Shown here: positions 931 through 18,468 of the stretch, one piece after another | How the letters are laid out: each line of letters begins with the position of its first letter | Numbering within the stretch: position 1 is the stretch's first letter | Assembly (NCBI RefSeq): GCF_006538705.1 | Contig: NZ_BJLP01000011.1 | Span: forward strand, 1-64,000 | Source: Cellulomonas uda | GTDB lineage: Bacteria > Actinomycetota > Actinomycetes > Actinomycetales > Cellulomonadaceae | DNA length: 64,000 nucleotides | Direction: 5' to 3' | The notes under the pieces: generated by a model | The model's input: the letters and a program-made list of their open reading frames with translations, nothing else | The model's database searches: none | Told to the model about the DNA's origin: nothing | Program-made: the position numbers and the translations under genes

Positions 931-2597
931 TGGGGCCGGGCGACCGGCCGCTCACCGTCGTCAACCCGGTCGTCCTCGCGGACGTCCCCGACCCGGACGT
1001 CGTCCACGACGGTCGGTACTACTACATGGTCAGCACGACCATGTACTTCGCGCCGAGCGTGCCGATCATGCGCTCGGACGACCTGGTGCACTGGTCGATC
1101 GTCGGGTACACCGGCCCGATCCTCGACGACACGGACGCGCTCGCCCTGCGCCACGGCCGCAACGCCTACGGACAGGGCAGCTGGGCCGCGAGCATCAGGT
1201 ACCACGAGGGGACGTACTACGTCTCGGTCGGGAGCCTGACCACCGACATGACGTACGTCTTCGCCACGCCCAGCATCGAGCACGGGCCGTGGACGAGGTC
1301 GGTCCTCGACGGCTACGCCCACGACCAGTCGCTGCTGTTCGACGGCGACGACGTCTTCCTCGTCTACGGCGGGGGAGTGATCGACCTGCGCCGGCTCCGC
1401 CGGGGCGACGACGGGACCTTCGCCTGGGACGGTCCGGCGACGCGGCTCGTCGAGCACGCCGACGTCGACCAGAGCAGCGGGCTGCACGCCGAGGGCGCGC
1501 ACGCGTACAAGATCGCCGGCAGCTACTACGTGTTCATGATCGAGTGGCCGACCGACGGGATCCGCCAGCAGGTCGTGTGGCGCTCGACGTCGTTGACACC
1601 GCAGTCCGAGGGCGGTGACTGGGAGGGCAGGGTCGTCCTCGCCCGGGCCGTGCCGGTCGCGGGGCGACAGGGCGACGGCGTCGCCCAGGGCGGCGTCGTC
1701 CAGGCGCCCGACGGGCAGTGGTACGCGATGCTGTTCCAGGACGAGGGCCCGCTCGGGCGCTCACCCCAGCTCGCGCGCGTGTCCTGGGACGAGGACGGAT
1801 GGCCCGTCTACACGCTCGACGCGGGGACGACCGACCCCGGAGCGGCGACGTCCGTGCGAGCGACCGACCTGCTCGTCTCGGACGACTTCGACAACCGCCC
1901 CACGCCGGCCGGCTACTGGAGCACCGCGGACCCCGGTGCCCTGACGGCGTCGGACGAGAACGCCTGGAACGGCTCGAGCCTCGGGCTGTCCTGGCAGTGG
2001 AACCACAACCCGGACAACCGGTTCTGGTCGCTCACCGACCGGCCCGGCCATCTGCGGCTCACCACCGGCAGCCTCGCGTCGGGCATCCTCGACGCACGCA
2101 ACACGCTCACCCAGCGCACGTACGGTCCGACGAGCGCCGCGGCGATCTCGCTCGACGTCTCCGGCATGAAGGACGGCGACGTCGCCGGCCTGTCCGCCTA
2201 CCAGCAGAAGTACGGGTACGTCGCCGTCGAGATGGCCGACGGCGCGCGCCGGCTCGTGATGCGCCGCGCCGACCGGCAGGGGCACGTCGCCTTCACCAGT
2301 GCGCCCGTGCCCCTGACGGCCGAGACGGTCCTGCTCCGCGTGGATGTGGACTTCCGAGACGCCGCCGACCGCGCCACGTTCGCGTACTCGCTGGACGGCG
2401 CCACCTGGACGCCGATCGGCGACGACCTGGCGATGGAGTACAGCCTCGACCACTTCACCGGGTACCGGTTCGCGATCTTCTGCTACGCCACGGCCGAGAC
2501 CGGTGGGCACGTGGACGTCGACTGGTTCCGCGCCGGCGACGCCATCGTCGCGAGCGCCTCGGACCGCGCGGCTGTCCCCAGCCTCAGCGAGGGGTAG
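930..2597 (+). CDS. glycoside hydrolase family 43 (xylosidase/arabinofuranosidase type)
   Basis: The 555-aa product opens with the GH43 hallmark VPDPDVV near residue 20, which carries the catalytic base aspartate. A DQSLLFDGDD segment near residue 131 fits the pKa-tuning Asp, and AEGAHAYKI near 188 fits the general acid Glu. Residues from about 310 on resemble the concanavalin-like C-terminal domain of GH43 xylosidases. The N-terminal text resembles the GH43_12-like enzymes, but the exact specificity (arabinofuranosidase or xylosidase) cannot be read from sequence. I chose ATG at 930 because it overlaps the GH51 stop (TGATG) and starts directly before the conserved domain; the open frame upstream is only a shadow of GH51. 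There is no signal peptide, so the enzyme is probably cytoplasmic. Its 3' end overlaps the tail of the convergent Doc gene by 14 bases. Confidence 0.92.
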   Translation: MGPGDRPLTVVNPVVLADVPDPDVVHDGRYYYMVSTTMYFAPSVPIMRSDDLVHWSIVGYTGPILDDTDALALRHGRNAYGQGSWAASIRYHEGTYYVSVGSLTTDMTYVFATPSIEHGPWTRSVLDGYAHDQSLLFDGDDVFLVYGGGVIDLRRLRRGDDGTFAWDGPATRLVEHADVDQSSGLHAEGAHAYKIAGSYYVFMIEWPTDGIRQQVVWRSTSLTPQSEGGDWEGRVVLARAVPVAGRQGDGVAQGGVVQAPDGQWYAMLFQDEGPLGRSPQLARVSWDEDGWPVYTLDAGTTDPGAATSVRATDLLVSDDFDNRPTPAGYWSTADPGALTASDENAWNGSSLGLSWQWNHNPDNRFWSLTDRPGHLRLTTGSLASGILDARNTLTQRTYGPTSAAAISLDVSGMKDGDVAGLSAYQQKYGYVAVEMADGARRLVMRRADRQGHVAFTSAPVPLTAETVLLRVDVDFRDAADRATFAYSLDGATWTPIGDDLAMEYSLDHFTGYRFAIFCYATAETGGHVDVDWFRAGDAIVASASDRAAVPSLSEG

Positions 2598-2967
2598 CCC
2601 TCGCCTCCAACCACGACGTGATGGTGGCCAGCTCCGGATGTACGTCGCCCCCGACCTCGCGGACGAACGCGTCGCCGTCCTCGGGGTCGATCGCGAGGTC
2701 GAAGCCGTTGAGCCGGTAGAGCAGGAGGACGAGCAGGATCGACAGTCGTTTGTTCCCGTCGACCAGCGGGTGCGAGCGGTTGATCGCCTCGAGCAGGGCC
2801 GCAGCCTTGGCGTGGATCCCGACGTATGCCTCTGTGCCCCACACGACCTGGGCCGGGCGTTCGATGGCGGAAGCCAGCGCGCCGACGTCCCGGATGTGCA
2901 GCCGCAGCTGCTCGCAGATGTCGAGAGCGTCGGCGAGCTCGGGATAGGCGAGCGGCGTCGAGGTCAT
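2584..2967 (-). CDS. doc: Doc-type toxin (Fic/Doc fold kinase-like)
   Basis: The 127-aa length equals that of phage P1 Doc, and HPLVDGNKR at residues 66-74 is the Fic/Doc active-site motif. Doc proteins phosphorylate EF-Tu and halt translation unless bound by their antitoxin. The start ATG overlaps the antitoxin stop by four bases (ATGA), the usual coupled arrangement with the antitoxin first. The motif lacks the Phe usual after HP (Leu here), which is a tolerated change in the family as far as I know. The 3' end runs 14 bases into the convergent GH43 gene. Toxin assignment is firm; activity is inferred. Confidence 0.88.
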   Translation of the reverse strand: MTSTPLAYPELADALDICEQLRLHIRDVGALASAIERPAQVVWGTEAYVGIHAKAAALLEAINRSHPLVDGNKRLSILLVLLLYRLNGFDLAIDPEDGDAFVREVGGDVHPELATITSWLEARATPR

Positions 2968-3170
2968 CGAGAGAGTCGCTCCAGGAGCTCTCGGTTGCCC
3001 TCGATGAGCTCACCGATGATCACCGTGCGCTCGGCCCGGCGGGTGACGGCCGCAGCGCGGTCCCGGATCGCGAGGACGGTGACGTCGTTCATGGAGCGGT
3101 GCTCGATCTCGGCCTGCTTACGCAGGGCGGCCAATGTCTCCTCGTCGAGGCGCAGGGTGAGCGTGGGCAT
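2964..3170 (-). CDS. antitoxin of the Doc module (ribbon-helix-helix/Phd-like)
   Basis: This 68-aa protein begins TLTLRLDEET, a strand followed by helix typical of ribbon-helix-helix DNA-binding antitoxins, and continues with an acidic/basic helical tail that would wrap the toxin. It precedes doc by a four-base overlap. The start has a good ribosome site (GGAAGGA) about eight bases upstream. It most likely represses its own operon through the repeated AGTG/CACT half sites at 3247-3277. Whether it is closer to Phd or to CopG/Arc-type antitoxins cannot be settled here. Confidence 0.82.
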   Translation of the reverse strand: MPTLTLRLDEETLAALRKQAEIEHRSMNDVTVLAIRDRAAAVTRRAERTVIIGELIEGNRELLERLSR

Positions 3171-3246
3171 GGTGGCGTTCCTTCCTTGCCCTGCCGCCGA
3201 CGTCGTGTGTGCTCCGGCGGTGGGTCCGGCAGGGCGTGGGCCCGGT

Positions 3247-3277
3247 AGTGTCGAAGTGAAGCCACTCTAGTGTCACT
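3247..3277. promoter_or_regulatory. candidate operator array of the toxin-antitoxin operon
   Basis: AGTG or its complement CACT occurs five times in 31 bases (3247, 3255, 3263, 3269, 3274). Two copies form AGTG-AAGC-CACT and two form AGTG-T-CACT. Such repeated palindromic half sites are what a dimeric antitoxin would bind. The array overlaps the last codon of the DUF262 gene. Confidence 0.5.
3264..3269 (-). promoter_or_regulatory. candidate -10 box (TAGAGT) of the antitoxin-doc operon
   Basis: On the minus strand the hexamer TAGAGT fits the TANNNT consensus and lies inside the AGTG/CACT array, as expected for an autorepressed promoter. No clear -35 was identified. The leader to the antitoxin start would be roughly 85 bases. 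Confidence 0.35.
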
Positions 3278-5075
3278 CTGAAGCCACCCGCAATGGGTAT
3301 GGCGTCGAGACGGTTGCACCGATCCGGTTGGGCACGCCGAGCGCCTTCGTGAGTCGATCTCGGAGTTTGCTCTTGCGCAGGTCGAAGAACGCGTCGAACT
3401 CGGTGATGCCCTCCGGCAGCTCGGCGAGGTCGTTGTCGTTGACGTACGTCTGCGCCCTCTGCGGTGTGGGGAACGCCGAAGAAATCCATTCCGCCGGGAG
3501 CATGTCCTGCTTCTCGACGTTCGCGGTGCCCGCCAGCAGTTGGAGGTTCGGCAGCAAGTCGCACAAGTCGATAAAGTGCTCGATCTTGTCCGGGGGCACG
3601 CCGACGGCGGCCAGCTTCTTCCGGGTGAATCTCGATCTCGGGAAGATGTGGTCCTCGTGGAACTGCTTGCTCAGGTCGAGGCCCGGGTAGAGTACGGACA
3701 GGACCGAGAACGTGCGCTGGCCGCCGTACTTGAGGTTGAGCAGCTCGTCGATCTCCGACGCTTCGAATGACAGCGCCTTCCCGGCAGATGCCATTGCGGC
3801 TTCAACCTCAGCAACGGGGAACCCTCCCGCGGCGTGGACTGATAGGACCTCGCGGATGCGCGTGAGCAGCGTGTCCAGTCCGGAACCCCAGACCCCGCGC
3901 TTGATCAGCGACCGCGTCACCCAGCCGTGCACGGCGAGGCGATCGGGGGCGTGCTTGGTCGCGTCGAGATAGCCGTCGCCGACACCGCGACGATGCAGGT
4001 AGTACGCGAGCGGGATGATCACGCTGCTTGCCGTGAGGTTGCGCTCGTTGTAGCCGAACTGCTGCAGCAGGGTGGCCGCGCGCAGGAGGGCTGAGCGGGT
4101 AGCAGGCCACACCGCTTCGACTGCGGCCATGTTTGCCTGTGTGAAGTTCGAGACTTTGAACCGGAGGTCGACGCCCGCGATCGCCAGGGCGGACTTCAGC
4201 ACGAGGTCCTTGGTGAACGCGAACTGACGTCCGGCGTTGGTGTTGATCTCGCTGACCAGGGAGCGGACTTCTTCGCGTGCGTCGAGGTCCTTCCACTGGT
4301 TGGTCGCCATCGATAGCAGCAGGTCGGAGTAGGACAGCGGCGTGCCGCCGCTATTCACTCGGACGAAGATCTCCAAGACCTTGTCGGGGTCTTGGTCCGT
4401 GACCAGGAAGTAGTTCATCGGCTTGAGCACGCGGACGGCCTCGTACAAGTCGTAGAGGCGCTGGAAGGCCGATGTGGAGTTCGCGATGCCGCGTGAGTCA
4501 AGCTCGTGCATGATCGCGGGACCGGAGTTCGCGAGGTCGAGCACGGCACCGACGCGGAACCAGACATGCGGCTCACCTTCGTTCGGCGCAGCTTCCTTGT
4601 CGGTGAAGAACTGCAGGTCGTACCGCAGGCCCAACTCCTCATCCTGGGGATCGTTGGCAATGTTGAGGTAGAGCCGCTTGACCGGGAAGGCATCGGGGCT
4701 GCTCCACCACGCGTACTTCTTCTTCTCCGCGAAGCTGCCGTACAGCGCGATGTTGAGCGACGTGAGGCGCTGCTGCCCGTCGAGCACGGCGACGGTCCCC
4801 GCGCCGGCCGGCACCGTCGCCTTGCCGGCGTATGGGTTGTCTCGCTCGTGGAAGTGGGTCAGGAACTCGTAGAAGGTGTACGACTGCGCCGTCTGCGGTT
4901 GGACTTCCCACAGCAGGAACGACCCAACCGGGTACCCGCGCATGAGGCTGTCGACGAGCCGGATGATCTGCTGCGGGCCCCAGACGAACTCGCGCTGGAT
5001 CGCCGGCATGAGGTACTCGTGCTTGTGGATCGACGTCAGCATCTCTTCGATGCTCTTGGGCGTCTGGAACGCCAT
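3273..5075 (-). CDS. DUF262 plus C-terminal HNH (DUF1524) protein, GmrSD-like
   Basis: The N-terminal half is a DUF262 (ParB/sulfiredoxin-like) domain with the diagnostic VLDGQQRLTS near residue 100. The C-terminal part has EDHIFPRSRF near residue 475 followed by NLQLLAGTANVEKQ near 510, the His-Asn-Asn layout of the DUF1524 HNH nuclease. Fused DUF262-DUF1524 proteins include GmrSD-type type IV restriction enzymes and SspE, which use nucleotide binding to sense modified DNA and nick or cut it. A longer frame begins at ATG 5099, but that start has no ribosome site, whereas ATG 5075 follows GAAGGGA. It is third in a helicase, helicase, nuclease run and probably works with them. The cellular trigger is unknown. 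Confidence 0.88.
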   Translation of the reverse strand: MAFQTPKSIEEMLTSIHKHEYLMPAIQREFVWGPQQIIRLVDSLMRGYPVGSFLLWEVQPQTAQSYTFYEFLTHFHERDNPYAGKATVPAGAGTVAVLDGQQRLTSLNIALYGSFAEKKKYAWWSSPDAFPVKRLYLNIANDPQDEELGLRYDLQFFTDKEAAPNEGEPHVWFRVGAVLDLANSGPAIMHELDSRGIANSTSAFQRLYDLYEAVRVLKPMNYFLVTDQDPDKVLEIFVRVNSGGTPLSYSDLLLSMATNQWKDLDAREEVRSLVSEINTNAGRQFAFTKDLVLKSALAIAGVDLRFKVSNFTQANMAAVEAVWPATRSALLRAATLLQQFGYNERNLTASSVIIPLAYYLHRRGVGDGYLDATKHAPDRLAVHGWVTRSLIKRGVWGSGLDTLLTRIREVLSVHAAGGFPVAEVEAAMASAGKALSFEASEIDELLNLKYGGQRTFSVLSVLYPGLDLSKQFHEDHIFPRSRFTRKKLAAVGVPPDKIEHFIDLCDLLPNLQLLAGTANVEKQDMLPAEWISSAFPTPQRAQTYVNDNDLAELPEGITEFDAFFDLRKSKLRDRLTKALGVPNRIGATVSTPYPLRVASE

Positions 5076-5124
5076 CCCCTGTTCCCTTCGTCGTGCCATG
5101 ACTGACTATCGCGGTGGGCGACGC

Positions 5125-7116
5125 CTATCTCCGTCGTCCTCGCAGTTCCTCGGGCAGTGGCTTCTGATGGACGATTACGAGTTCCCGGTTCGGTCGCGTC
5201 AGCGCGGTGTAGAGCTGGCCTTGCCGCCCTAAGTTCGGCGGGAAGGCCCATGGCTCGACGACGACGACTCCATCGAACTCCAGCCCGCGCGCGTGGTCCG
5301 GGTCGATGACCGTCAGCATTCGGCTGTCGCGCCGCCACCTGGTCACATCGGCACGGTCGGCGATCCAGCCGCGAGCGCGCAGTTCCTCGCGGGTGGGCTC
5401 TGGGTCGGTGTCGATGATCGCCACCGTCCCGTGCGGATGCCGGTCGAGCAGGCCGGACGCCTGGGCGACGGCTTCTGGCGACAGTGTCTTGGTCGTCACC
5501 ACGAGCGGCTCTGGGCCCTCGTTCTGCAGCGACGCCAACTCGCGCTCAGTCTTCGGAAGCAGCTTGTTGGCGAACTGGATGATCGGTCGGGTCGAGCGGT
5601 AGCCGCGCTGCAGCCGCACGAGCGGCAGGTCCTCGTCCTCGATCGCGAGCGCCGCCGCGACGTTCTTCCAACTGCCTTCGGTGTGATCCGAGCGGCGCTG
5701 GTTCAAGTCGCCCAATAGCGTCCAGTATCCGCCGGCGTTGATCTCGGTCAGTACGGCCCACTCGAGGGGATGCACGTCCTGAGCTTCGTCGACGATCACA
5801 TGTCCGATGCCCTGCAGTGCGCGCAACGGCTGGACCTGGCCGCCGATATAGGCGAGCAGGGGCTGGAGAGAACGGTCATCCTGGGCGTCGCGAAAGCGTG
5901 GCAAGCGTCGCAGGTACTCGCGCCATTCGTGCTCGGTCGTGAGGGGGCGGTCGCCGCCGTTGACGCGAAGCGTCTCGTAGACGTGTTCGACGGCGTCCCG
6001 CAGCTTGGCGTATTTGGGCCGACCCGCGCTCGTGATTCGACGCCAGGCCTTGAATGCGAAGTCGGCCAGTTCCTGGCTGACGTCTTGCCAGGAGTAAGAA
6101 GGCGGTCCCCAGACGCGATTCTCCGAGCGTCCGGTGAGTTGTTCGAGGAGTTCCTGAAGTGACACGACGATCAGGTCTCGAGTTGCGGGCGCAAGCCGCT
6201 CTAGCAGGTGCGCGACGTGGTGCGAGTACTGCCTGGACGGGCCGACGAGCATCACCTTTCCTTCGGGCTTGTCCTGATCCTCGATCGCAGGGCTGACGAG
6301 GAACGCTGCGCGATGGGCCGCGATGATCGTCTTGCCGGTGCCGGGTTGCCCTTCGATGATGCAGTTCGTGCGACCCGGCGCTGCGACGACTTCGTACTGG
6401 TCGGGCTGCAGGGTGGAGAGTACCGACGCGAGTTGGTCGCTCCGTGGCGCAGCTAGGCGCGCGTGAAGCAAGTCGGCCGCCCTAAGCCCGTCCTTCTCGG
6501 GGCTGCCCGGCCCCTTGGCAGACGCTGCCTTCACGGGTTCCGGACCCAGGGGCTGCGTTTTTGCAGCATCGGACTTGCCCGGCGCGGATTGGGCCGCAGG
6601 TTTCGTCGACAGGCTGCGCCCGGTTGTGGGCAGCACCGCCCGGGTCGGCGCCGCCGGAATACTGAGGACGCGCCGCCGGAACGGGACACCCGGCGGGTCG
6701 TCAACGATCGCCTCGTCGTAGAACTCCGAGATGCCGCCGTTCCTGTGGGCGTACGTGCGGATGACCGCGACCCGTTCGCACAGCGGGTGGTGGGTGCTGC
6801 CCCGGAAGAACGTGCACGCGACTCGCGCGGACCAATGAAAAACCTCGACGCCGTCGAGCTCGTAGTGGCCGTCCCCGATGTAGAAGTCCGACCGGCCGTC
6901 CAGGTGCTCCGGGTCGGGCCCGACAAGGGCGACTCGACCCACGAACTGCCCGAATCCTCCGACGGGGAGCTTGACCTGGCCTGTCCCGGTCCACAGCGTG
7001 TTGCGCGCGCCCTGAGTAGGGATCGGCATGCGGGCTCGACGATCCATCGCCTCCTTGTACTGGTTCTCGGCAGCGCGCTCGTCGGCGAGCTCCTGGGCGT
7101 GAGGGTCACTCGCCAT
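5125..7116 (-). CDS. HelD-like UvrD/Rep-family ATPase
   Basis: The 663-aa product has a Walker A EGQPGTGKTIIAAHRAAFLV near residue 255, DEAQD (motif II) near 440, a RGYRST motif IV-like segment and the C-terminal QLYTALTRPNRELVIVH (motif VI). The region after residue 70, with FYIGDG followed by VFHWSARVACTFFR, matches the HelD pattern of a YIG strand and a VDWRAP-FY strand. HelD proteins are RNA polymerase-associated ATPases with a long N-terminal coiled coil; here only about 30 residues precede the conserved part, so that coil is nearly absent. The ATG lies within the end of the SNF2 gene (11-base overlap). It may have been adapted to a defence complex; a general UvrD-like role cannot be excluded. 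Confidence 0.85.
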   Translation of the reverse strand: MASDPHAQELADERAAENQYKEAMDRRARMPIPTQGARNTLWTGTGQVKLPVGGFGQFVGRVALVGPDPEHLDGRSDFYIGDGHYELDGVEVFHWSARVACTFFRGSTHHPLCERVAVIRTYAHRNGGISEFYDEAIVDDPPGVPFRRRVLSIPAAPTRAVLPTTGRSLSTKPAAQSAPGKSDAAKTQPLGPEPVKAASAKGPGSPEKDGLRAADLLHARLAAPRSDQLASVLSTLQPDQYEVVAAPGRTNCIIEGQPGTGKTIIAAHRAAFLVSPAIEDQDKPEGKVMLVGPSRQYSHHVAHLLERLAPATRDLIVVSLQELLEQLTGRSENRVWGPPSYSWQDVSQELADFAFKAWRRITSAGRPKYAKLRDAVEHVYETLRVNGGDRPLTTEHEWREYLRRLPRFRDAQDDRSLQPLLAYIGGQVQPLRALQGIGHVIVDEAQDVHPLEWAVLTEINAGGYWTLLGDLNQRRSDHTEGSWKNVAAALAIEDEDLPLVRLQRGYRSTRPIIQFANKLLPKTERELASLQNEGPEPLVVTTKTLSPEAVAQASGLLDRHPHGTVAIIDTDPEPTREELRARGWIADRADVTRWRRDSRMLTVIDPDHARGLEFDGVVVVEPWAFPPNLGRQGQLYTALTRPNRELVIVHQKPLPEELRGRRR

Positions 7117-10100
7117 CGCTGACCTCCAGAAGGCAGACCGCGAGTGGCTCCAGCCGGATCTCGGGGTGGGCTTGCGCCTCGAGGTCCGCGAGGAGCGCGG
7201 CGTGTCGCTCGGTGGCGCGTGCTCGCTGGCTCTCGAACAGTCGAATCGCGGAGGCGTGACGGCCGCGCGAGCGGGCCGTGCGGATGCGCTGCTCGATGGT
7301 GCGTACGCGACGGTCGTACTGGTCGGAGAGAACCACCTTGCGCGCCTCGGAGAGCGCGCGAGCCTCGGCGTCCCGCCGGGCCTGCTCCCGGTCGTGTCGG
7401 ATGTCGAGCAGATCGCGGGCGCGTGAGGCCGGCCTGACCAGGTCCTCGGGTGTTGCCGGCTCTCTGCCCTGTTCGAGCGCGCCCTTCGCGAGACCGGCCA
7501 AGACTAGGTCGACAACCTCCGTCGGAGCTTGGCGACCGGTCAGGTCAACGGCCGTGCCCCAGATCTCGTCTCCTCCCCGCGAGGCGGCGAGGGCCTGGCT
7601 GAGCACGACCACGTAGGTCCCCGCCGGCGCGACCGCCTCGCGGTCGACGATCCGGATGCTCGCGAATCGTGCTTGCCGGTGCCCGGGGACGTCCACTGCT
7701 GACATCACCAGCGGGCTGGTGGCGGTGAGCAGATCGCCCCCGCCGGTGCGGGCCCGTTCCTGGTCGAGGACGAACGTCAGTGGAAGTTCGTTGCGAAGGC
7801 CCGCGGTGAGCGGTTCGAGTTCGGCGCGCGACCGGCGACCGGAACGCGCGAGCTGGTCGAGGCGTTCGGCCATCGCGGGGTTCCCGCGCAAGGTCAGCGC
7901 CTGCCCGTCGGCGGTGAAGGCCACGCCTTCGGCGCCGTCCGTCTTGGCCCAGTCGTCGAGCAGCAGGCCGAGCTCGCGCTGTCCGACGTAGCGCCCGGTC
8001 CGGATGAGGTCGTCCTCGAGCCCCGAGACGTCCACGTCGTTGCTGACCATGAGCGCCGAGGATGCATCCGCGACCTCGCGCAGTCCGGCACGCTGGTTCT
8101 CGATCGCTTCGAGAACTCGCTGTACCTTCCGCTCGCGCTCGTCCTCGGTCAGGTCGAAGTCGAAGGCCGCTCGAAGCGCGGGCATCTGCGACTCGATGAT
8201 CGGTTCGAGCGCTCCGATCGAGGACTCGAAGATCTTGATGCGTTCGAGCACTCGGATGAGGATCCGCTCGTCGATGGTCGCCTCGTTGTAGAAGTTGACG
8301 ACGAGGATCTTCTCCTCGGGCTGCCCGATGCGGTCGATGCGACCGATGCGCTGCTCGATCTCCATCGGGTTCCACGGAAGGTCGTAGTTGATCACCGCCG
8401 AGCAGAACTCGAAGTCCAGACCTTCGCTGGCCACCCGGTTGGCGAGCACGACGTCGTACTCACCTCGGCGGAACGCCGCCATGATGCGACGTCGCTCATC
8501 CCGGCGGACGCCTCCGTGCATGATCGCGACCCTCATGTGTGGCGCGAGCCGGTCTCGCAGGTAGGCGAGCGTCGGCTTGGAGAACGTGAACAGCAGGGCG
8601 CGGCGGCCTTCGTCGACGAGCGAGGTCAGGATCGGCAGCAGGAGGTCGAACTTGGAGTCGACCTCAGGTGCCAGCGCTTTCGCCGCGGCGATGAGTGCGG
8701 CGTGCGGATCCACCTGGACGGCCTGACCGTCGGCGTCGGCGTCGACGATTGCTCCGAATCCGACGGGGTCCAGCACGGCCTTACGCGCCATGGGCAGGCA
8801 CGCGCTCGCGAGGCGCAGCGGCATCTGCATCGCGAAGTAGACGGGCATGCCGACGGCATTGGCACGAGCCCGACACCAGGCCACGTACTCGTCGTAGAAG
8901 GCGGCCTCTTCGGGTGTCCACGTCACCTCGCCCGCCCGGGGTTCGCGGATTGCCTTCCGCTCGTCGACCTCGGCTTTCTTGGTGCGGGTGATAACGGTGG
9001 ACAGCGAGTTCAAGTCGGCCAGGTGCCGTCGCGCCTCCACGACGTCCGCAGGCGACATCTCTTCCTTCTCGAGCACCTTGCGCAGGAGCGGCACATCGGG
9101 CCGACGTGCGAGCACCATGCCGTAGGTGCTGTCGCCGAGGCGGGCGAGCGCCTCCACCCGGTCGGCGGCGGTTGATGTCGGGTCGTTCAACAGCGTCCCG
9201 ATGCGATGCAGGACGGCGTTCGGCTCGAGGCGAAGCTGGAGGTCCGCGAGGTCGTCGTAGTCCTCCGGTGCGAGCAGCTCGAGCAGGTTGAGCAGGTCTT
9301 CCTGTCGGAGGTTGATCGGCGTCGCGGTGAGGAACACCAAGGAGTCAGCCCACTCGGCGAGCTGCGTGCCAAGCTCGTAGCTCTTCGTGTTCGAGTTTCG
9401 CATCGAGTGCGCCTCGTCGACGATGACGAGATCGAACGCGGGCGGTGTCGTCGCCAGCTCGGCGAGACCACTCCAGGTGCGCAGACGTTCGAGGGTGCAG
9501 ATGTACGACTGTCGCTTGGGAAGCCGCCCTTCCCGGAAGCGCTCGAGGAAGCTGGTCAGGCCGGCGGTGTCCAGCTCGGTCAGGTCGAAGCCGAACCGCT
9601 CCTCCATCTCCTCCTTCCACTTGCCCAGCAGCGAGGACGGGCAGACGACGAGGACGCGATCGGCCTCGCGTCGAGCCTCCAGTTCTGTCCAGATCAGTCC
9701 TGCCTCGATGGTCTTGCCGAGTCCGACCTCGTCCGCGACGAGGAGCCGCGCCTTGCCCGTCTGCAGCAGTTTGAGCACGGGCTTGAACTGGTACGGACGG
9801 AACGTGGTCCGGGTCGCGCGGAACGAGTAGAGGGTGTCCGCGAACCTGCCGCGGAGCTTGCTGCGGGTCAGCGTCGCCCCGAAGCGCTCGACGGACGCCG
9901 CGCTGCCCCTGACCCAGGTCACGGGGTCGTCGTTCTGAGGCACCGCAGCAAGCTTGCTCTCGAGGACTTGCTCTGACCGCCCGCCGTGGAAGACCGCGTA
10001 ATTCCACTGCCCGCCGACGAAGCGTCGGCGCCGAATGATGACGTCGACACCGCCGGGCACGGTGATCGCGGACTCTTGCACCGAGAACTTGGGCTTGGGA

Positions 10101-10492
10101 ACATCCGTCGCGGTCGTCCAGTAGTGCTCCGCCCACCCGAAGGCGTGGGCAAGGGGATGGTCGTCCGTCAGCTCGTCAACCGGGAGCGACGTGGCGGCCC
10201 CTGAGCCGGTGCCCAGGCCGACCTGCAGCAGAAGTGGCTCGTCGATGCCGTCGAACCAGTACAGGCCGGCGGGCAAGGGAACGTCCGCGTCCCACAGCGC
10301 CCGGCACTGGCCGACGTGGTCGATGAGGTCGACGACAGGCTCATCGAGCACCAACGCCCGAGAGAAACGTCCGCGCGACAGCACCGCTGAGACGTCGTCA
10401 ACGATCGGATGATAGCCGAAGCTCGCAGGTGTAGACCCTGAGTCCACGACTTCTGACCTCCGCTCTGAGGCGTCTCTTGCGTCCGGCTCCAC
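7106..10492 (-). CDS. SNF2/RapA-like superfamily 2 helicase
   Basis: The 1128-aa product carries ADEVGLGKTIEAGL (motif I) near residue 256, VIVDEAHSMRN (motif II) near 356, FLTATPI (motif III) and QRIGRIDRIGQ (motif VI) near 714, the full set of a SNF2/RapA ATPase. About 220 residues before and 400 after the motor are not recognisable to me; the tail is rich in Arg/Glu helices. It starts at GTG 10492, 60 bases after hsdR. Comparable SNF2 proteins occur in DISARM (DrmD) and Zorya (ZorD), but none of the other genes of those systems is here. It overlaps the HelD-like gene, so the two are probably made together and may form a DNA-tracking complex. Confidence 0.88.
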   Translation of the reverse strand: MEPDARDASERRSEVVDSGSTPASFGYHPIVDDVSAVLSRGRFSRALVLDEPVVDLIDHVGQCRALWDADVPLPAGLYWFDGIDEPLLLQVGLGTGSGAATSLPVDELTDDHPLAHAFGWAEHYWTTATDVPKPKFSVQESAITVPGGVDVIIRRRRFVGGQWNYAVFHGGRSEQVLESKLAAVPQNDDPVTWVRGSAASVERFGATLTRSKLRGRFADTLYSFRATRTTFRPYQFKPVLKLLQTGKARLLVADEVGLGKTIEAGLIWTELEARREADRVLVVCPSSLLGKWKEEMEERFGFDLTELDTAGLTSFLERFREGRLPKRQSYICTLERLRTWSGLAELATTPPAFDLVIVDEAHSMRNSNTKSYELGTQLAEWADSLVFLTATPINLRQEDLLNLLELLAPEDYDDLADLQLRLEPNAVLHRIGTLLNDPTSTAADRVEALARLGDSTYGMVLARRPDVPLLRKVLEKEEMSPADVVEARRHLADLNSLSTVITRTKKAEVDERKAIREPRAGEVTWTPEEAAFYDEYVAWCRARANAVGMPVYFAMQMPLRLASACLPMARKAVLDPVGFGAIVDADADGQAVQVDPHAALIAAAKALAPEVDSKFDLLLPILTSLVDEGRRALLFTFSKPTLAYLRDRLAPHMRVAIMHGGVRRDERRRIMAAFRRGEYDVVLANRVASEGLDFEFCSAVINYDLPWNPMEIEQRIGRIDRIGQPEEKILVVNFYNEATIDERILIRVLERIKIFESSIGALEPIIESQMPALRAAFDFDLTEDERERKVQRVLEAIENQRAGLREVADASSALMVSNDVDVSGLEDDLIRTGRYVGQRELGLLLDDWAKTDGAEGVAFTADGQALTLRGNPAMAERLDQLARSGRRSRAELEPLTAGLRNELPLTFVLDQERARTGGGDLLTATSPLVMSAVDVPGHRQARFASIRIVDREAVAPAGTYVVVLSQALAASRGGDEIWGTAVDLTGRQAPTEVVDLVLAGLAKGALEQGREPATPEDLVRPASRARDLLDIRHDREQARRDAEARALSEARKVVLSDQYDRRVRTIEQRIRTARSRGRHASAIRLFESQRARATERHAALLADLEAQAHPEIRLEPLAVCLLEVSDGE

Positions 10493-10552
10493 TACGACCT
10501 GTCATCGGCTTGGGAGCACTTGACCTGAAGAGGTATCAAGCGGTCAACGGCA

Positions 10553-13500
10553 TCAGGACGCCATCTCCAGTGCCGACTTTCCGGACGCCATGCGCGGCGC
10601 CATGCTCTCCATCTGCTCCATCACAAGCGTGATCGCGCCGGGCTGCTTGTCCGGCGGGTACTTGTACTTGACGAGTAGCCGCTTGATCGACGAGCGGAGC
10701 TTCGCGCGCACATCATCGCGAACGGTCCAGTCGGTCTTGATGTCGCGGCGCATGACCTCAACCAGCTCGCGAGCGATCTGCGCGAGCACGTCGTCCCCCT
10801 GGATCTCGACGGCCGACTCGTTCGCCGCAACCGCGTCGTAGAAGGCGAGCTCGTCTGAGTTGAGCGGGGGCGTGAACTGCTCGCCGCGATGCGCTTCGGC
10901 TGCGACCTCCTTCGCGAGCTCGATGAGCTCGGCGATGACCTCAGCCGACGTCAGCTGCTGGTTGGTGTAGCGGTTCATCAGCTCCTTGAGCTTCTCCGAG
11001 AACGCGCGGTGCCGGACCAGGCTGTTCTGCGTGACCCGCGCGGACTCTTCGGTGAGCAGATCGCGCAACGCCTCGATCGCCAGGTGCGCATTCTCGGCCT
11101 GCTGCGCTCGATGCACGTACTCAGGGCCGAGATCCGACAGCGAGGGCTTGGGAAGGCCCGCGGCCTCGTAGATGTCGACGATCTCGCCGGTCGCGGTAGC
11201 GGACGCGACGAGACCCGCGAGCATCCGGCTGATCTCCTCGGGCACGGGCTCGCCGGACGCCTGACGCTCCTGGGCGTCGAACTTGGCCATCCAGACCCTG
11301 ACCTCTTCGTAGAACTTCGCCGTCCTACGGAGGTCGTCGAGCGTCTCGGAACCGGCCGCGAGCGCCCAGGCCCTGGCGAGCTGGTTCGCCAGTCGGCGGA
11401 AGCGGACGCCGAGCGTCTCGTCGCCGTCCGCTACCTGGTTGCCGGCCGTCGCCGGAGAACGCAGGTAGTTGGTGACACCGACGGCGGCCTTGATCCAGCT
11501 GCGGGCGTCCGCGCCTATCTGCTCCTGCCACGGGTAGCCCGCGCAGATGGCGTCCAGCGACTCGATGAGAGTCCGCGCCAGTACCGCCGCTTCGTCGATG
11601 TTCCGACCGACAGGCTTCTTCTCCTGGTCCCGTTCGGTGTACTCGGCGAGCGCCTTGTTGAGGTTGTCCGCCAACGGCGCGTACGCGACGAGCAGACCGT
11701 CGGGCTTGCCGCGGAACGTGCGGTTCACGCGCGCGAGCGTCTGCATCAGCAGCGCGCCCTGCAGGGGGCGATCCAGGTACAGCGTGTGCAGCGGTGGTGC
11801 GTCGAAGCCGGTGAGCATCATGTCCTTGACGATGACGATCTGCAGCGGGTCCTCGGCGTCCTTGAGCCGCTTCTGGATGACCTTGTTCTGCGCGTCGCGG
11901 CGGACGTGCTTGGCGACGATGCCGGTGTCCGTCGCTGACCCGGAGTAGACGACCTTGATGACGCCCTTGTCGACGGCGTCGTCGTGCCACTCCGGCTTGC
12001 GGGCGATGATCTCGTCGTAGAGCTGGGCGCAGATCTCCCGAGTCGCGCCGACGATGAACGCCTTGCCCGGAGACTCCAGGAACGGGCGCATGGCGTCCGA
12101 CCGCTTCTGCCAATGGGCGAGCAGGTCGTCGGCGAGGGCGGAGACGCGTGCGGGCGCCCCGTAGACCGCGTTGATGACCGCCACCGACTTCTCGATCCGC
12201 TCCCGCTCGACCTCGTCGAGCCCCGTCGACGCCTCGTCGGCTGCAGCGTCGAGGTCCTCGTCGGTGACCGTGCCGGCCAACTTCACCGAGATGAGCCTCG
12301 GTTCGAAGTACACCTGAACCGTGGCGCCGTCGTCGACGGCGTGCTGCAGGTCGTAGGTGTCGATCGTGTCGCCGAACACGCGCTTGGTGTTTCGATCGGC
12401 GAACGAGATCGGAGTACCGGTGAACGCGATGAACGCTGCGTTCGGAAGCGCGTCGCGGATGTGGCGGGCGTAGCCGTCGAGGTCGTCGTAGTGGCTGCGG
12501 TGCGCCTCGTCGACGACGACGATGATGTTGCGCCGGTCCGTCAGGAGGGGATGGTCTGCGCCCGCCTTGCGCTCCTCGTCGGTCAGCCCGAACTTCTGCA
12601 GGGTCGTGAAGTAGATGCCGCCGGTCGCCCGTGTCGTGAGAGCGTCGCGGAGCTGCCCGCGCGATGTGACGTTGGTGGGGCTTTCGGGGAGCAGTCGCGA
12701 CCTGTTGAAAGCCTCGAATAGCTGGCTGTCGAGCTCGGTCCGGTCCGTGACGACGACGAGTGTCGGATTCTTCAGCTTGGGCTGCAGCGCGACGAGGTGG
12801 GCGTACAGCTCCATCTCCATCGACTTGCCGGAGCCCTGCGTGTGCCAGACGACGCCGGCCTTGCCGTTGCTCTCGACCGCGGTGACGGTCGAGCCGACCG
12901 CCTTCGTGACAGCGAAATACTGGTGCGGCTTGGCGATCCGCTTGGCGTACCCGTCGGCGCCCTCGTCGAACGCGACGAAGTTGCGCTGCAGCTGCAGGAA
13001 CCGCTCGGGGTTGCAGACGCCGTCGATGAGCAGCTCGATCTCCAGGCCGAGGCTGTCGTCCTGCACGTCGACGCCGGGCGTGACGCGACGGCCGTCGTCG
13101 TCGACGTTCCACGGCGAGTAGTGGTTGAGCGGCGTGAACGGCGTGCCGTAGCGGGCCGTGATGCCGTCGCTGACGATCGTGAGCACGACGAACCGGAACG
13201 CCATCGGGAACTCGCGCAGGTACGTCTCGAGCTGCGCGTGCGCAGCCGACACATCGGCGTGCCGCGAGCCCGCCTTCTTCAGCTCCACCACGACGACCGG
13301 CAGACCGTTGAGGTAGAGCACGACGTCAAAGCGACGCTCGTGCTCCACCGAGCGGATGATCATCTGGTTGACGGCCAGCCACTCGTTGTCCTCGACGCGG
13401 TGGCTGACGAACCGGATCGTCGGGTTCTGCTCGACGCCGTCGGGGTCGACGTACGTGATGCCGCGGTACCCGTGGACGAGCACCTCGTGCAGCCGGAAGT

Positions 13501-13747
13501 TCTCTGCGATCGGGTCCTGCGACGCCGGCGACAGCACCTCCGCCAACGCCTGCTCCAGGTATCCCTCCGGCACCAACGGGTTGAGGCGCCGCAGCGCGGC
13601 CAGCGCGCGCTCGCGCAGCACGATGTCGTCCCACGACGAGCGGCCGAGCTCGGCGCCTGGCGCGACCTGCGCGCCGGCGAGCGTGTCCCAGCCGTGCTCG
13701 GACAGCCGCTCGAGCGCGATGTCCTCCCACTCCGCCTCACTCACCAT
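10553..13747 (-). CDS. hsdR: type I restriction endonuclease subunit R
   Basis: The 1064-aa protein has an N-terminal PD-(D/E)xK nuclease, with the Asp in RRFDVVLYLNG near residue 139 and VVELKKAG near 154. The translocase follows, with HTQGSGKS (Walker A) near 300, VVDEAHRSHY near 412 and FTGTPI. The helical C-terminus fits the part that docks on HsdM. Length and motif order are those of intact HsdR. Its start ATG shares one base with the hsdS stop (TGATG). HsdR translocates DNA and cuts when the HsdM-HsdS complex meets an unmodified site. Confidence 0.95.
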   Translation of the reverse strand: MVSEAEWEDIALERLSEHGWDTLAGAQVAPGAELGRSSWDDIVLRERALAALRRLNPLVPEGYLEQALAEVLSPASQDPIAENFRLHEVLVHGYRGITYVDPDGVEQNPTIRFVSHRVEDNEWLAVNQMIIRSVEHERRFDVVLYLNGLPVVVVELKKAGSRHADVSAAHAQLETYLREFPMAFRFVVLTIVSDGITARYGTPFTPLNHYSPWNVDDDGRRVTPGVDVQDDSLGLEIELLIDGVCNPERFLQLQRNFVAFDEGADGYAKRIAKPHQYFAVTKAVGSTVTAVESNGKAGVVWHTQGSGKSMEMELYAHLVALQPKLKNPTLVVVTDRTELDSQLFEAFNRSRLLPESPTNVTSRGQLRDALTTRATGGIYFTTLQKFGLTDEERKAGADHPLLTDRRNIIVVVDEAHRSHYDDLDGYARHIRDALPNAAFIAFTGTPISFADRNTKRVFGDTIDTYDLQHAVDDGATVQVYFEPRLISVKLAGTVTDEDLDAAADEASTGLDEVERERIEKSVAVINAVYGAPARVSALADDLLAHWQKRSDAMRPFLESPGKAFIVGATREICAQLYDEIIARKPEWHDDAVDKGVIKVVYSGSATDTGIVAKHVRRDAQNKVIQKRLKDAEDPLQIVIVKDMMLTGFDAPPLHTLYLDRPLQGALLMQTLARVNRTFRGKPDGLLVAYAPLADNLNKALAEYTERDQEKKPVGRNIDEAAVLARTLIESLDAICAGYPWQEQIGADARSWIKAAVGVTNYLRSPATAGNQVADGDETLGVRFRRLANQLARAWALAAGSETLDDLRRTAKFYEEVRVWMAKFDAQERQASGEPVPEEISRMLAGLVASATATGEIVDIYEAAGLPKPSLSDLGPEYVHRAQQAENAHLAIEALRDLLTEESARVTQNSLVRHRAFSEKLKELMNRYTNQQLTSAEVIAELIELAKEVAAEAHRGEQFTPPLNSDELAFYDAVAANESAVEIQGDDVLAQIARELVEVMRRDIKTDWTVRDDVRAKLRSSIKRLLVKYKYPPDKQPGAITLVMEQMESMAPRMASGKSALEMAS

Positions 13748-14949
13748 CAGAGCACCTCCTCCACCCTCTTCTCGGCATCGCGGACCTGAACCTTGCCCGA
13801 CATCAGCAACGGAAGGAGCTCGTCGCGTGTCGTTGCCACAGCGGCGGATTCGAGAACGGTCTGGGCGGCGAGGTCGTGCAAAGGCCGGACGGTCTCGTTG
13901 AACGCGTCGATCCGATCGTCATCTGGCACGGCGACGTTAATCGACTTGAACCGTCCGCGAGAGAGCTCCAGGAACGTTGCGCCATTCGCGTGGGTCAGGA
14001 ACTCTGGCACGCGGGATCGCATGTCGTGGAAGAGCCACAGTTGGTGCCGCGCTTTCCGCGCGTTCACCACGATGAAGCCCTGGTTTACTGCCACCGGAAC
14101 CTGCGCGAGGGCGAACGCACCAATCGTCGCCCGTGACGTCATCAAGATCGACCCAGGGGGGTACGTGCTTGACGAGCAAGCGCCGAGCCCCGCGTCCGTG
14201 ATCGTGCGCGAAGTCTCGGAGAGATAGGGCGCGGAGAGTCGGGTCACGTCAGTCGGCGTGGCCCAACGAACGCCGCCGTCCCAGTACTCCGGCACTCGCG
14301 TGGATGGCGTGCCGCCGCCTGACACTTCGGCGATTTCTCCAAACGTCGTCACTCCGGGCTCAACCGCCGCAGACTGGGCGCGCCGGAAGATGGCGTCGGC
14401 GAGGCTCTCGATGTTTCGCACCACGCGGTCGTTGGCGGCGATCTTGTCGTCGAGCGCCCCGAGCACCTCAGCAATCGCCCGCTGCTCGTCCCAGCCCGGA
14501 GCCGGGATGCGGACAGTGCGCAACGCAGCTTGCCTAATCCCGAGGACGGTCGTACCAGTGGCGTGGCCTCGAAGGCTGGCTTGGACGGGGTCGGACTGAA
14601 GTGCGTAGTACAAGTAGCCCGTATCCAGAACGCCGCGCTTGCCGCGCAGACCGAAGATGCGCTGGCCAAGAACGACTGGGTCGTCGCTCGGCACGCGTGC
14701 CACTCTGCCGAGGGGCGCCTCGGACGTCAGAAGAACGTCTCCACGAGCGGTTGGGATGCTCATCCAACGTGCCGCGGTCTCGGCATCGACGAAGCGCGCT
14801 TCACCCAAGTCCAGGCGTCCAGCCTTCACGAGGAGTGCTGAAGCGACCGGAACACCCGAGTCGGTGAACGCGGATCCGAGCTTGGCGGGCGTCTTTCCGC
14901 GGTAGTCGATCAGAACCTCAAGACCGTCGCCGAGGGTCACGTCGTTCAT
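13747..14949 (-). CDS. hsdS: type I restriction-modification specificity subunit S
   Basis: The 400-aa protein has two target-recognition domains of about 150 residues each, split by the conserved helix WDEQRAIAEVLGALDDKIAA and followed by a second helical repeat at the C-terminus. The first TRD ends in VRIPAPGWDEQ and the second in INVAVPDD, the typical TRD-to-helix transitions. HsdS sets the bipartite DNA site for both methylation and cleavage. The gene overlaps hsdM by four bases and hsdR by one. The sequence recognised cannot be predicted from the protein alone. Confidence 0.93.
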   Translation of the reverse strand: MNDVTLGDGLEVLIDYRGKTPAKLGSAFTDSGVPVASALLVKAGRLDLGEARFVDAETAARWMSIPTARGDVLLTSEAPLGRVARVPSDDPVVLGQRIFGLRGKRGVLDTGYLYYALQSDPVQASLRGHATGTTVLGIRQAALRTVRIPAPGWDEQRAIAEVLGALDDKIAANDRVVRNIESLADAIFRRAQSAAVEPGVTTFGEIAEVSGGGTPSTRVPEYWDGGVRWATPTDVTRLSAPYLSETSRTITDAGLGACSSSTYPPGSILMTSRATIGAFALAQVPVAVNQGFIVVNARKARHQLWLFHDMRSRVPEFLTHANGATFLELSRGRFKSINVAVPDDDRIDAFNETVRPLHDLAAQTVLESAAVATTRDELLPLLMSGKVQVRDAEKRVEEVL

Positions 14950-16559
14950 GCGAGCCGCTCCAACTGCTCACGCACTACCTTCTCGAGCGCCGCCGATCCG
15001 TCCATTGCATCCAGGAGCTGGGTCCGGAGTCGTTCGAGCCTCGTTTCGAGTTCCTCGTCGTCGTCGTCACCGGCGGCCGAGCCGACGTAGCGGCCCGGCG
15101 TGAGCGCGTACCCAGCGGCTTCGATCTCGTTGAGCGGCACGGATCGGCAGAAGCCCGCCACGTCTTCGTAGTCGCTCGCCGCTGACACCACCCCCCGCCA
15201 CCGGTGGTACGTGTCGCCAATCCGCTTGATGTCCTCGGCCGACAGGTCGCGCTCGGCCCGGTCGACCATGTGGCCGAGCTCGCGGGCGTCGATGAACAGC
15301 ACCTGTCCGGTGCGGTCAATCGACCCCTGCGCACCCTTGGTCTTGTCCTTGGCGAAGAACCACAGGCACACGGGGATGCCGGTGCTGCGGAACAGCTGCG
15401 TCGGCAGGGCAACCATGCAGGAGACGAGGTCCGCCTCGACGATCTGCCGGCGGATGTCGCCCTCACCGTTGGAGTTCGACGACATCGACCCGTTGGCCAT
15501 CACGACGCCGGCGCGCCCGCCGGGCGCGAGCTTGGACAGGATGTGCTGGATCCACGCGTAGTTCGCGTTGGTGGCGGGCGGAACGCCGTACCGCCACCGC
15601 GGGTCCTCGACGTTGCGCGCCCAGTCCTTGATGTTGAACGGTGGGTTCGCCATGACGAAGTCCATGAGGACGTCGGCATGCTGGTCGCGGGCGAAGGTGT
15701 CGCCCCACCGGGCGCCCAGGCCCTTGTTGTCGATGCCGTGGATGGCGAGGTTCATCTTCGCCAGCCGCCAGGTCTCCTCGTTGAGCTCCTGGCCGTAGAT
15801 CGCGACGTTCTTCGGGTCGCCGTCGTGGTCGTGGACGAACTTCTCGGTCTGCACGAACATGCCGCCGGACCCGCAGCACGGGTCGTACACGCGGCCCTCG
15901 TGCGGCTCGAGCACCTCGACGATCACCTTGACCACCGACGGTGGCGTGAAGAACTCGCCGCCGCGCTTGCCCTCCGCCCGCGCGAACGCGCCGAGGAAGT
16001 ACTCGTAAACCTCGCCCATGAGGTCCCGCGCCTTGTGCTCGCCCTGCCGGCTGAACCGGGTGCTGCTGAACAGGTCGACGAGCTCGCCGAGGCGACGCTG
16101 GTCGATGTTGTCGCGGTTATAGATACGCGGCAGCGTGCCGACCAGGCTCGGGTTGGCACCCATGACGACGTCCATCGCGTCGTTGACGAGCGAGCCGATC
16201 GTCCGGGGCGGCTCGCTGCCGATCGCAGGCTTGCCCTTCGAGTTCTCCGACAGGTACGCCCAGCGCGCCTGCGGCGGCACCACGAACACCCCGTACCCTT
16301 GGTACTCCTCGGGGTCGTTGATCAGCTCGGTGATCTGCGACTCGTCGTAGCCCTCGGCGAGGAGGTCGGCGCGGATCGCCTCGCGTCGCTCCTCGTAGGC
16401 GTCGGAGACGTACTTGAGGAAGACGAGGCCGAGGATGACATCCTTGTACTGCGAGGCGGAGAGCGAGCCTCGCAGCTTGTCGGCGGCCTTCCAGAGGGTG
16501 TCCTTGAGCTCCTTCATCGTGGAGGGAGCGTCAGGTGCGGACTTGGTGCGGGGTGGCAT
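14946..16559 (-). CDS. hsdM: type I restriction-modification DNA methyltransferase subunit M
   Basis: The 537-aa protein contains the HsdM N-terminal helical domain (LWKAADKLRGSLSASQYK), the SAM-binding DPCCGSGGMF and the catalytic NPPFNIKDW, all intact for N6-adenine methylation. The annotated start is the ATG at 16559; the reading frame is open further upstream, but that part is a shadow of the preceding gene. The start lies one base after the stop of the HTH fusion gene, so the two are coupled. The C-terminal helices fit contact with HsdS. All three hsd genes look functional. Confidence 0.95.
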   Translation of the reverse strand: MPPRTKSAPDAPSTMKELKDTLWKAADKLRGSLSASQYKDVILGLVFLKYVSDAYEERREAIRADLLAEGYDESQITELINDPEEYQGYGVFVVPPQARWAYLSENSKGKPAIGSEPPRTIGSLVNDAMDVVMGANPSLVGTLPRIYNRDNIDQRRLGELVDLFSSTRFSRQGEHKARDLMGEVYEYFLGAFARAEGKRGGEFFTPPSVVKVIVEVLEPHEGRVYDPCCGSGGMFVQTEKFVHDHDGDPKNVAIYGQELNEETWRLAKMNLAIHGIDNKGLGARWGDTFARDQHADVLMDFVMANPPFNIKDWARNVEDPRWRYGVPPATNANYAWIQHILSKLAPGGRAGVVMANGSMSSNSNGEGDIRRQIVEADLVSCMVALPTQLFRSTGIPVCLWFFAKDKTKGAQGSIDRTGQVLFIDARELGHMVDRAERDLSAEDIKRIGDTYHRWRGVVSAASDYEDVAGFCRSVPLNEIEAAGYALTPGRYVGSAAGDDDDEELETRLERLRTQLLDAMDGSAALEKVVREQLERLA

Positions 16560-18405: not shown

Positions 18406-18468
18406 GCTCACCTCCCTCGGCTACCTCGACGATAGACCTACCGGACGCCGCCGCTGTGCGTCCACATG

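Follow-up and report, generated by a model that had tools for sequence, protein, structure and literature searches.

We identify a conserved two-gene cassette, SNF2-HelD, in a 64,000-nucleotide stretch of the Cellulomonas uda genome (RefSeq assembly GCF_006538705.1, contig NZ_BJLP01000011.1, positions 1 to 64,000; hereafter the window). It consists of a translocase of the RapA/DrmD class and a HelD-derived superfamily 1 (SF1) motor in which the stretch from motif I to motif II is shortened, and the new element is the near-constant pairing of the two. A first-pass annotation of the window had joined these genes with a third, encoding a DUF262-HNH protein, into one linked cassette that may travel with type I restriction-modification (R-M) genes. 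All three reading frames are open on the minus strand, the 11-base overlap of the first two is exact, and the domain searches agree with the earlier domain calls:

7106 to 10492, minus strand: SNF2 motor (superfamily 2), 1128 aa, called from its open frame, SNF2-rel_dom and Helicase_C domains and ATPase motifs
5125 to 7116, minus strand: HelD-derived SF1 motor (HelD-like), 663 aa, called from AAA_19/UvrD, HelR/HelD as top NCBIfam models, and motifs
7106 to 7116, minus strand: overlap of the SNF2 end with the HelD-like start, exactly 11 bp by frame coordinates
3273 to 5099, minus strand: DUF262-HNH protein, 608 aa, predicted GmrSD-type type IV restriction enzyme of the BrxU/HEC-05 family, called from GmrSD_N and motifs

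The pairing of the two motors recurs across genomes. At 16 of 17 loci, the gene immediately upstream of HelD-like encodes SNF2; these are 15 of the 16 undecayed loci and a decayed copy in genome G700. Eight of the loci were found with the HelD-like profile in a one-genome-per-species collection (82 stretches matched two patterns, 8 were confirmed), and SNF2 is directly upstream in all eight; in one, L040, a contig end interrupts SNF2, and the remaining part is on contig C229 of G540. Whole-genome searches added the same gene order in G404, G668, G709, G718, G716 and G748. The reading frames overlap by 4-14 bp in 11 of the 14 loci measured; in the other three they are 20, 41 and 116 bp apart. 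Across 14 loci (leaving out L040, which is cut, L057, which is unpaired, and L085, which is decayed), the identity matrices of SNF2 and HelD-like are correlated at r=0.968, a value reached in none of 10,000 permutations. Because identities range from 31 to 63% for HelD-like and from 42 to 78% for SNF2, the association is not recent. FastTree analyses separated the 14 pair SNF2s from 7 other SNF2s, among them four plasmid relatives, the DpdE-like SNF2 of L081 and the type III R-M helicase of L037, and the 15 HelD-like proteins from 5 other HelD-family open reading frames (ORFs), each with support 1.0. The pairing is near-constant, not absolute.

The cassette is patchily distributed. Searches of 396 genomes of the phylum scored two to three candidates per genome, so that the counts are lower bounds: at least 4 genomes matched the HelD-like profile (at least 3 at full length), at least 5 the SNF2 profile and at least 7 DUF262, with the SNF2 matches of G188 and G260 (250-352 bits) left out. 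Full-length HelD-like was found in 8 of 296 genomes of the class at E<=1e-60, one of them a decayed copy, and in 3 of 148 relatives, 145 of which hold some HelD/UvrD-family match. A match in G283 (161 bits, residues 219-665 only) was judged by eye from its N-terminus to be an ordinary HelD and was not counted. In viral contigs, 2 stretches fitted a pattern but neither was confirmed as a HelD-like relative; no plasmid record covered 80% of either motor, with partial matches in 66 and 792 records; and no phage record, in searches with SNF2, covered 80% of that protein (57 partial matches).

Relatives of SNF2 also occur in other settings. The SNF2 of G094, 33% identical to that of the window, lies apart from the pair SNF2s in the tree, and no gene for a HelD-like protein accompanies it in the 20 kb read; at this locus (L058) a GmrSD gene (1456-3510) and a gene that looks BrxL-like by eye (5304-7157) precede it (7785-11039), which makes this a second SNF2/GmrSD neighbourhood. 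More distant SNF2 relatives were read in four plasmid regions. Two of these, from Rhizobiaceae (L091 and L092), share a hypothetical protein of about 1040 aa as the next gene, L091 also carrying a TM0106 RecB-like nuclease, and the other two have different neighbours. The Rhizobiaceae arrangement is possibly another SNF2-based defence operon.

The SNF2 protein carries the ATPase motifs DEVGLGKT (254), DEAH (359), TATP (389), EGLDF (690) and QRIGRIDRIGQ (714). Its best family is DrmD, at 423 bits in PADLOC and 327 bits in NCBIfam, the latter under the cut-off of 610, followed by the BrxH, DpdE and HmaA models. The closest solved relative by PDB sequence is RapA (158 bits). Since the NCBIfam scores run from DrmD (327 bits) through DpdE (200) to RapA (177), this likeness is probably a class feature. 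The predicted structure is poor (predicted template modelling score 0.32), and its VIA-align rows, in which RapA (Z 13.5, root-mean-square deviation (rmsd) 24.5) is mixed with eukaryotic remodellers at equal Z, suggest only an SNF2 fold. Strands at 141-183 raised the suspicion of a Tudor-like domain, which we do not claim. Pfam (E<=0.001) recognised neither a nuclease nor a methylase domain in SNF2 or HelD-like, so that, judged by its domains, SNF2-HelD is not a self-contained restriction system.

The HelD-like protein carries the motifs GQPGTGKT (256), DEAQD (443), GDLNQR (469), RGLEFD (610) and YTALTR (636). Against the curated HelD/HelR models of NCBIfam it scored 102.5-122.7 bits, short of cut-offs of 419-1100, and its best relatives by PDB sequence are the HelDs of Mycobacterium smegmatis (141 bits) and B. 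subtilis (125 bits). The clearest difference from these proteins lies between motifs I and II, which are 186 aa apart in the window protein and 176-191 aa apart in all 14 pair HelDs, versus 270-322 aa in five other HelD-family ORFs, making the pair segment about 80-145 aa shorter. These five, putative HelDs, are the ones, out of 18 loci tried, that had all motifs. Alignments to two solved HelDs agree, with about 120 profile positions between the matched blocks versus about 250-260 residues in the HelDs. In HelD, the RNA polymerase clamp is opened by a part lying in this segment, and we take the missing stretch to be that clamp-opening domain. HelD chains filled the first seven Foldseek rows obtained with the HelD-like model, at template modelling scores of only 0.33-0.40, and VIA-align placed 8q3i_H (Z 19.4, rmsd 4.4, 367 aligned) level with PcrA and UvrD. 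The N-terminal region matches the solved HelDs weakly, and the model has a mean predicted local distance difference test (pLDDT) value of 64, with most of residues 26-232 under 50; with the model only moderate, its N-terminal part is left uninterpreted.

The pair is embedded in defence islands whose content changes from locus to locus. Among the neighbours scanned, defence or candidate-defence genes were recognised at 14 of the 16 pair loci, and at no fewer than 8 of 16 a system that includes a methylase is present within about 12 kb (the window, L035, L036, L037, L038, L039, L083 and L085). Downstream of the pair and on its strand, Mycobacterium triplex (L036) encodes BrxB, BrxC, PglX, PglZ and BrxL of a bacteriophage exclusion (BREX) system, BrxA not having been looked for; Promicromonospora has a type III R-M set (SNF2 helicase, DUF4391, Mod and Res) followed by DUF262. 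Hma-related genes recur: Actinotalea (L087) carries DUF1156, HmaC, MzaB-like, DUF4420 and MzaC-like genes beside the pair, and in L083 (genome G716) HmaB (its C-terminal part, at the contig end), DUF262, HmaC, SNF2 and HelD follow one another on one strand. No other helicase was recognised on the 12.8-kb contig of L083, and the pair stands where the Hma helicase could be. Luteimicrobium and G709 have DruE-like and DpdE-like helicases; the DpdE-like assignment comes from similarity in Luteimicrobium, where an Eco57I-type methylase was also identified, and from a scan in G709. Further loci show McrBC and DUF262 (G668), DUF262 and HNH_2 (Kineosporia), an AAA_5 ATPase with a PADLOC candidate match (L042) and a PDC-S68 candidate (G718); the decayed pair of G700 (L085, 8606-14978), with frames broken in both genes, lies beside a C5 methylase and Z1.

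Beside the pair in two genera (L081, 11073-19901; L090, 5040-16326), we also observed a cassette of a DruE-like helicase of about 1720 aa, a DpdE-like SNF2 of about 940 aa and a third gene, which in L090 encodes a 1078-aa Eco57I-type methylase. This cassette may be an unnamed system.

We give an even chance to the explanation that SNF2-HelD is an exchangeable two-motor helicase module serving modification-based defences, with neighbouring genes supplying the nucleases. The marking of self and non-self would fall to the adjacent system, which is type I R-M in the window and BREX, type III R-M or Hma elsewhere. The SNF2 motor would then track or remodel invading double-stranded DNA, and the HelD-like motor would act on the single strands, ends or bound proteins that SNF2 exposes. 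Cutting would be done in trans, in the window by HsdR and BrxU. We infer in this scheme an anti-phage role, an order of action and a dependence on the neighbouring system; it is supported by the adjacency of the pair to HmaB and HmaC in L083 and by the same-strand R-M and BREX operons directly before or behind it. In a more specific form, the pair is a portable two-motor cartridge that acts as the helicase of type I and III R-M, BREX and Hma, its effectors in trans often being nucleases of the GmrSD type and its HelD half a domesticated RNA-polymerase recycler from which the clamp-opening insertion has largely been removed. We regard this form as tentative, possible rather than probable.

Several observations weigh against the module explanation. 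No defence neighbour was recognised at 2 of the 16 loci, L059, which lies at a contig end, and L084, where only dynamin-like GTPases were seen. The HmaA missing from L083 could sit on another contig of G716. In G184 (L057), HelD-like occurs without SNF2 in the 20 kb read; as this HelD-like sits among paired ones in the HelD tree, loss of SNF2 is likely there. The layout of SNF2 outside its motor is not established, its structure model being poor. Finally, neighbours that differ from locus to locus fit an autonomous system living in defence islands equally well.

Such an autonomous system, in which the two motors defend without cutting DNA by stripping RNA polymerase or replication proteins from the invader, is a less likely alternative. 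The closest PDB relatives of the two proteins, RapA and the M. smegmatis HelD, are both RNA-polymerase-recycling enzymes, HelD chains lead the Foldseek rows, and neither motor has a recognised nuclease domain while the partner systems vary. The probably class-wide nature of the RapA likeness lessens the first of these points, and the short motif I-II segment common to all 14 pair HelDs argues against the alternative.

The third gene is separate from the pair. The DUF262-HNH protein is, by its sequence, a BrxU/HEC-05 type IV restriction enzyme, an already known kind. Residues 11-588 of 608 match residues 2-579 of 7p9k at 552 bits, the sole PDB sequence matched at E<=0.01, which we take to be BrxU (the record itself reads DUF262 domain-containing protein), and the PADLOC match to HEC-05 reaches E=5e-215 (713.6 bits). 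NTPase motifs (RLVDS at 47, DGQQR at 107) and HNH nuclease motifs (DHIFP at 483, N..K at 527) are present, DGQQR and DHI(F)P being shared with BrxU; Pfam GmrSD_C was not matched at E<=0.001, though the HNH motif is there. The likely start is at 5075, giving 600 aa, which fits the BrxU alignment beginning at residue 11; the gap to HelD-like is then 49 bp, or 25 bp from the longer frame. The window copy adjoins type I R-M and the motor pair, not BREX. Passages of PMC8565348 report that purified BrxU degrades DNA with 5-methylcytosine, 5-hydroxymethylcytosine or glucosylated 5-hydroxymethylcytosine and not plain DNA, and that BREX and BrxU give complementary protection. By analogy, BrxU in the window most likely covers modified-cytosine phages that escape the type I enzyme.

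A three-gene system, with the DUF262-HNH nuclease receiving DNA from the two motors, is improbable in our estimation, although the three genes are co-directional and closely spaced in the window. A BrxU orthologue at E<=1e-5 was found in none of the 8 other pair genomes (those of the one-genome-per-species loci; the same query does match itself in the window genome, G000), and HelD-like and a DUF262 orthologue occur together in 1 of the 396 phylum genomes, the window genome itself (a lower bound). The earlier cassette therefore stands for its first two members and not for the third. A weaker form of the triple does hold: in 6 of 16 genomes (G000, G668, G540, G537, G716 and G541), a GmrSD_N gene of one sort or another is found no more than 10 kb from the pair. 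The 16 genomes hold 14 GmrSD-type genes, those of G404 and G709 on a different contig from the pair, and random placement predicts 0.07 within 10 kb (calculated on 25.4 kb per genome, contig ends uncorrected). Yet the nearby genes belong to three subfamilies, namely BrxU in the window, a type found in L041 and L083 (51% identical) and an Orf5/HEC-06-like type in L037, L080 and L088, and they lie up- or downstream, sometimes divergent, as from the SNF2 start in G540, or several genes off. Part of the enrichment is island clustering, because HSDR_N likewise exceeds random placement within 10 kb (2 of 16 genomes versus 0.06 expected); as defence genes cluster, random placement is too weak as a null. 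BrxU is moreover described as working independently in the passages available from PMC11411939, which also cite Machnicka et al. as having already reported GmrSD genes in type I R-M loci.

The genes around the three are likewise on the minus strand, in the order 616-aa protein, hsdM, hsdS, hsdR, SNF2, HelD-like, DUF262-HNH and a ribbon-helix-helix/Doc-like pair:

10553 to 13747, minus strand: hsdR, type I restriction subunit, 1064 aa, called from domain matches
13747 to 14949, minus strand: hsdS, type I specificity subunit, 400 aa, called from domain matches
14946 to 16559, minus strand: hsdM, type I N6-methyltransferase, with its start at 16559 or 16517 (longest ORF from 16946)
16561 to 18411, minus strand: protein of 616 aa encoded immediately upstream of hsdM, matching nothing in Pfam or PADLOC at E<=0.001
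2584 to 3170, minus strand: Fic/Doc-family gene (2584-2967) overlapping a ribbon-helix-helix antitoxin-like gene (2964-3170), downstream of BrxU

The type I set directly upstream of SNF2 comprises HsdM, an HsdS with two specificity domains, and HsdR. In Cellulomonas alba, hsdMSR again precedes the pair, which directly follows hsdR on the same strand, and an integrase lies downstream; identities to the window are 92% for HsdR, 79% for SNF2 and 61% for HelD-like. These two loci are what could make the pair an accessory of the type I system only, an explanation we hold to be very unlikely, given that they are the only 2 of 16 pair genomes with HSDR_N within 10 kb, both from Cellulomonas, and that most other loci hold other systems. 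The expectation that the genes travel with type I R-M fails on the same count. Least probable of all is an ordinary HelD/HelR, acting in RNA polymerase rescue and rifampicin tolerance, to which the adjacent SNF2 gene would be unrelated: HelD-like does have HelR/HelD as its top NCBIfam models, but its scores fall far below their cut-offs, the genome holds other HelD-type matches (for example C6:47916), and the protein stands apart from the five other HelD-family ORFs in the tree and next to SNF2 at nearly every locus.

Of the remaining genes in the window, the 616-aa protein has a relative in the same place in C. alba (70% over 218 residues compared) and may be a companion of type I R-M. The Doc-like protein, encoded with the ribbon-helix-helix gene at the operon's end, has a relative near the HelD-only locus too (L057, 14743-15060). 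A 476-aa protein (18575-20005, plus strand) with no Pfam or PADLOC match diverges from the island, and its translation looks coiled-coil-like by eye.

The first-pass annotation saw no companion genes of DISARM, Zorya or Ssp, and our searches bear this out. For DISARM, SNF2 stays under the DrmD cut-off as given above, and PF09369 (MZB, formerly called DUF1998), the DrmB marker, is absent from the window contig (C11) and found in this genome on C9 and C28 only. The matches listed for those window proteins that were scanned included no ZorA or ZorB (ZorD scored 28.5 bits versus a cut-off of 1500), no SspB, SspC or SspD (SspE scored 26.5 bits versus 713.6 for HEC-05) and no GajA, although HelD-like shares a UvrD-like core with Gabija GajB (weak matches up to 34 bits); for Hma, neither HmaB nor HmaC was among the matches listed for 11 window proteins scanned with PADLOC. 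The BrxHII and HmaA helicases of type 3 BREX and of the BREX-related DUF499 (Hma) systems share the RapA-like SNF2 class with the window protein, but the BrxH and HmaA models score it at only 164-190 bits. A 2026 comparative study (PMC12839542) describes, in the text available from it, RapA-like SNF2 proteins as the helicase part of these systems, with nucleases fused or nearby; the words HelD and UvrD have 0 occurrences in that text, which mentions no HelD-like partner. HelD/HelR RNA polymerase recycling ATPases share the SF1 core of HelD-like, which differs from them in its shorter motif I-II segment, its low scores and its coupling to SNF2. Our literature searches found no description of the SNF2-HelD pair.

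DISARM, BREX, Dpd and Hma all include SNF2 helicases. Here a rare cassette retains its two motors in the company of varying restriction or exclusion systems, which amounts to a natural experiment: if the pair strengthens several of these systems, the motor step would be separable from marking and cutting. If the favoured explanation is true, an ATPase family that recycles RNA polymerase would have been recruited for defence.

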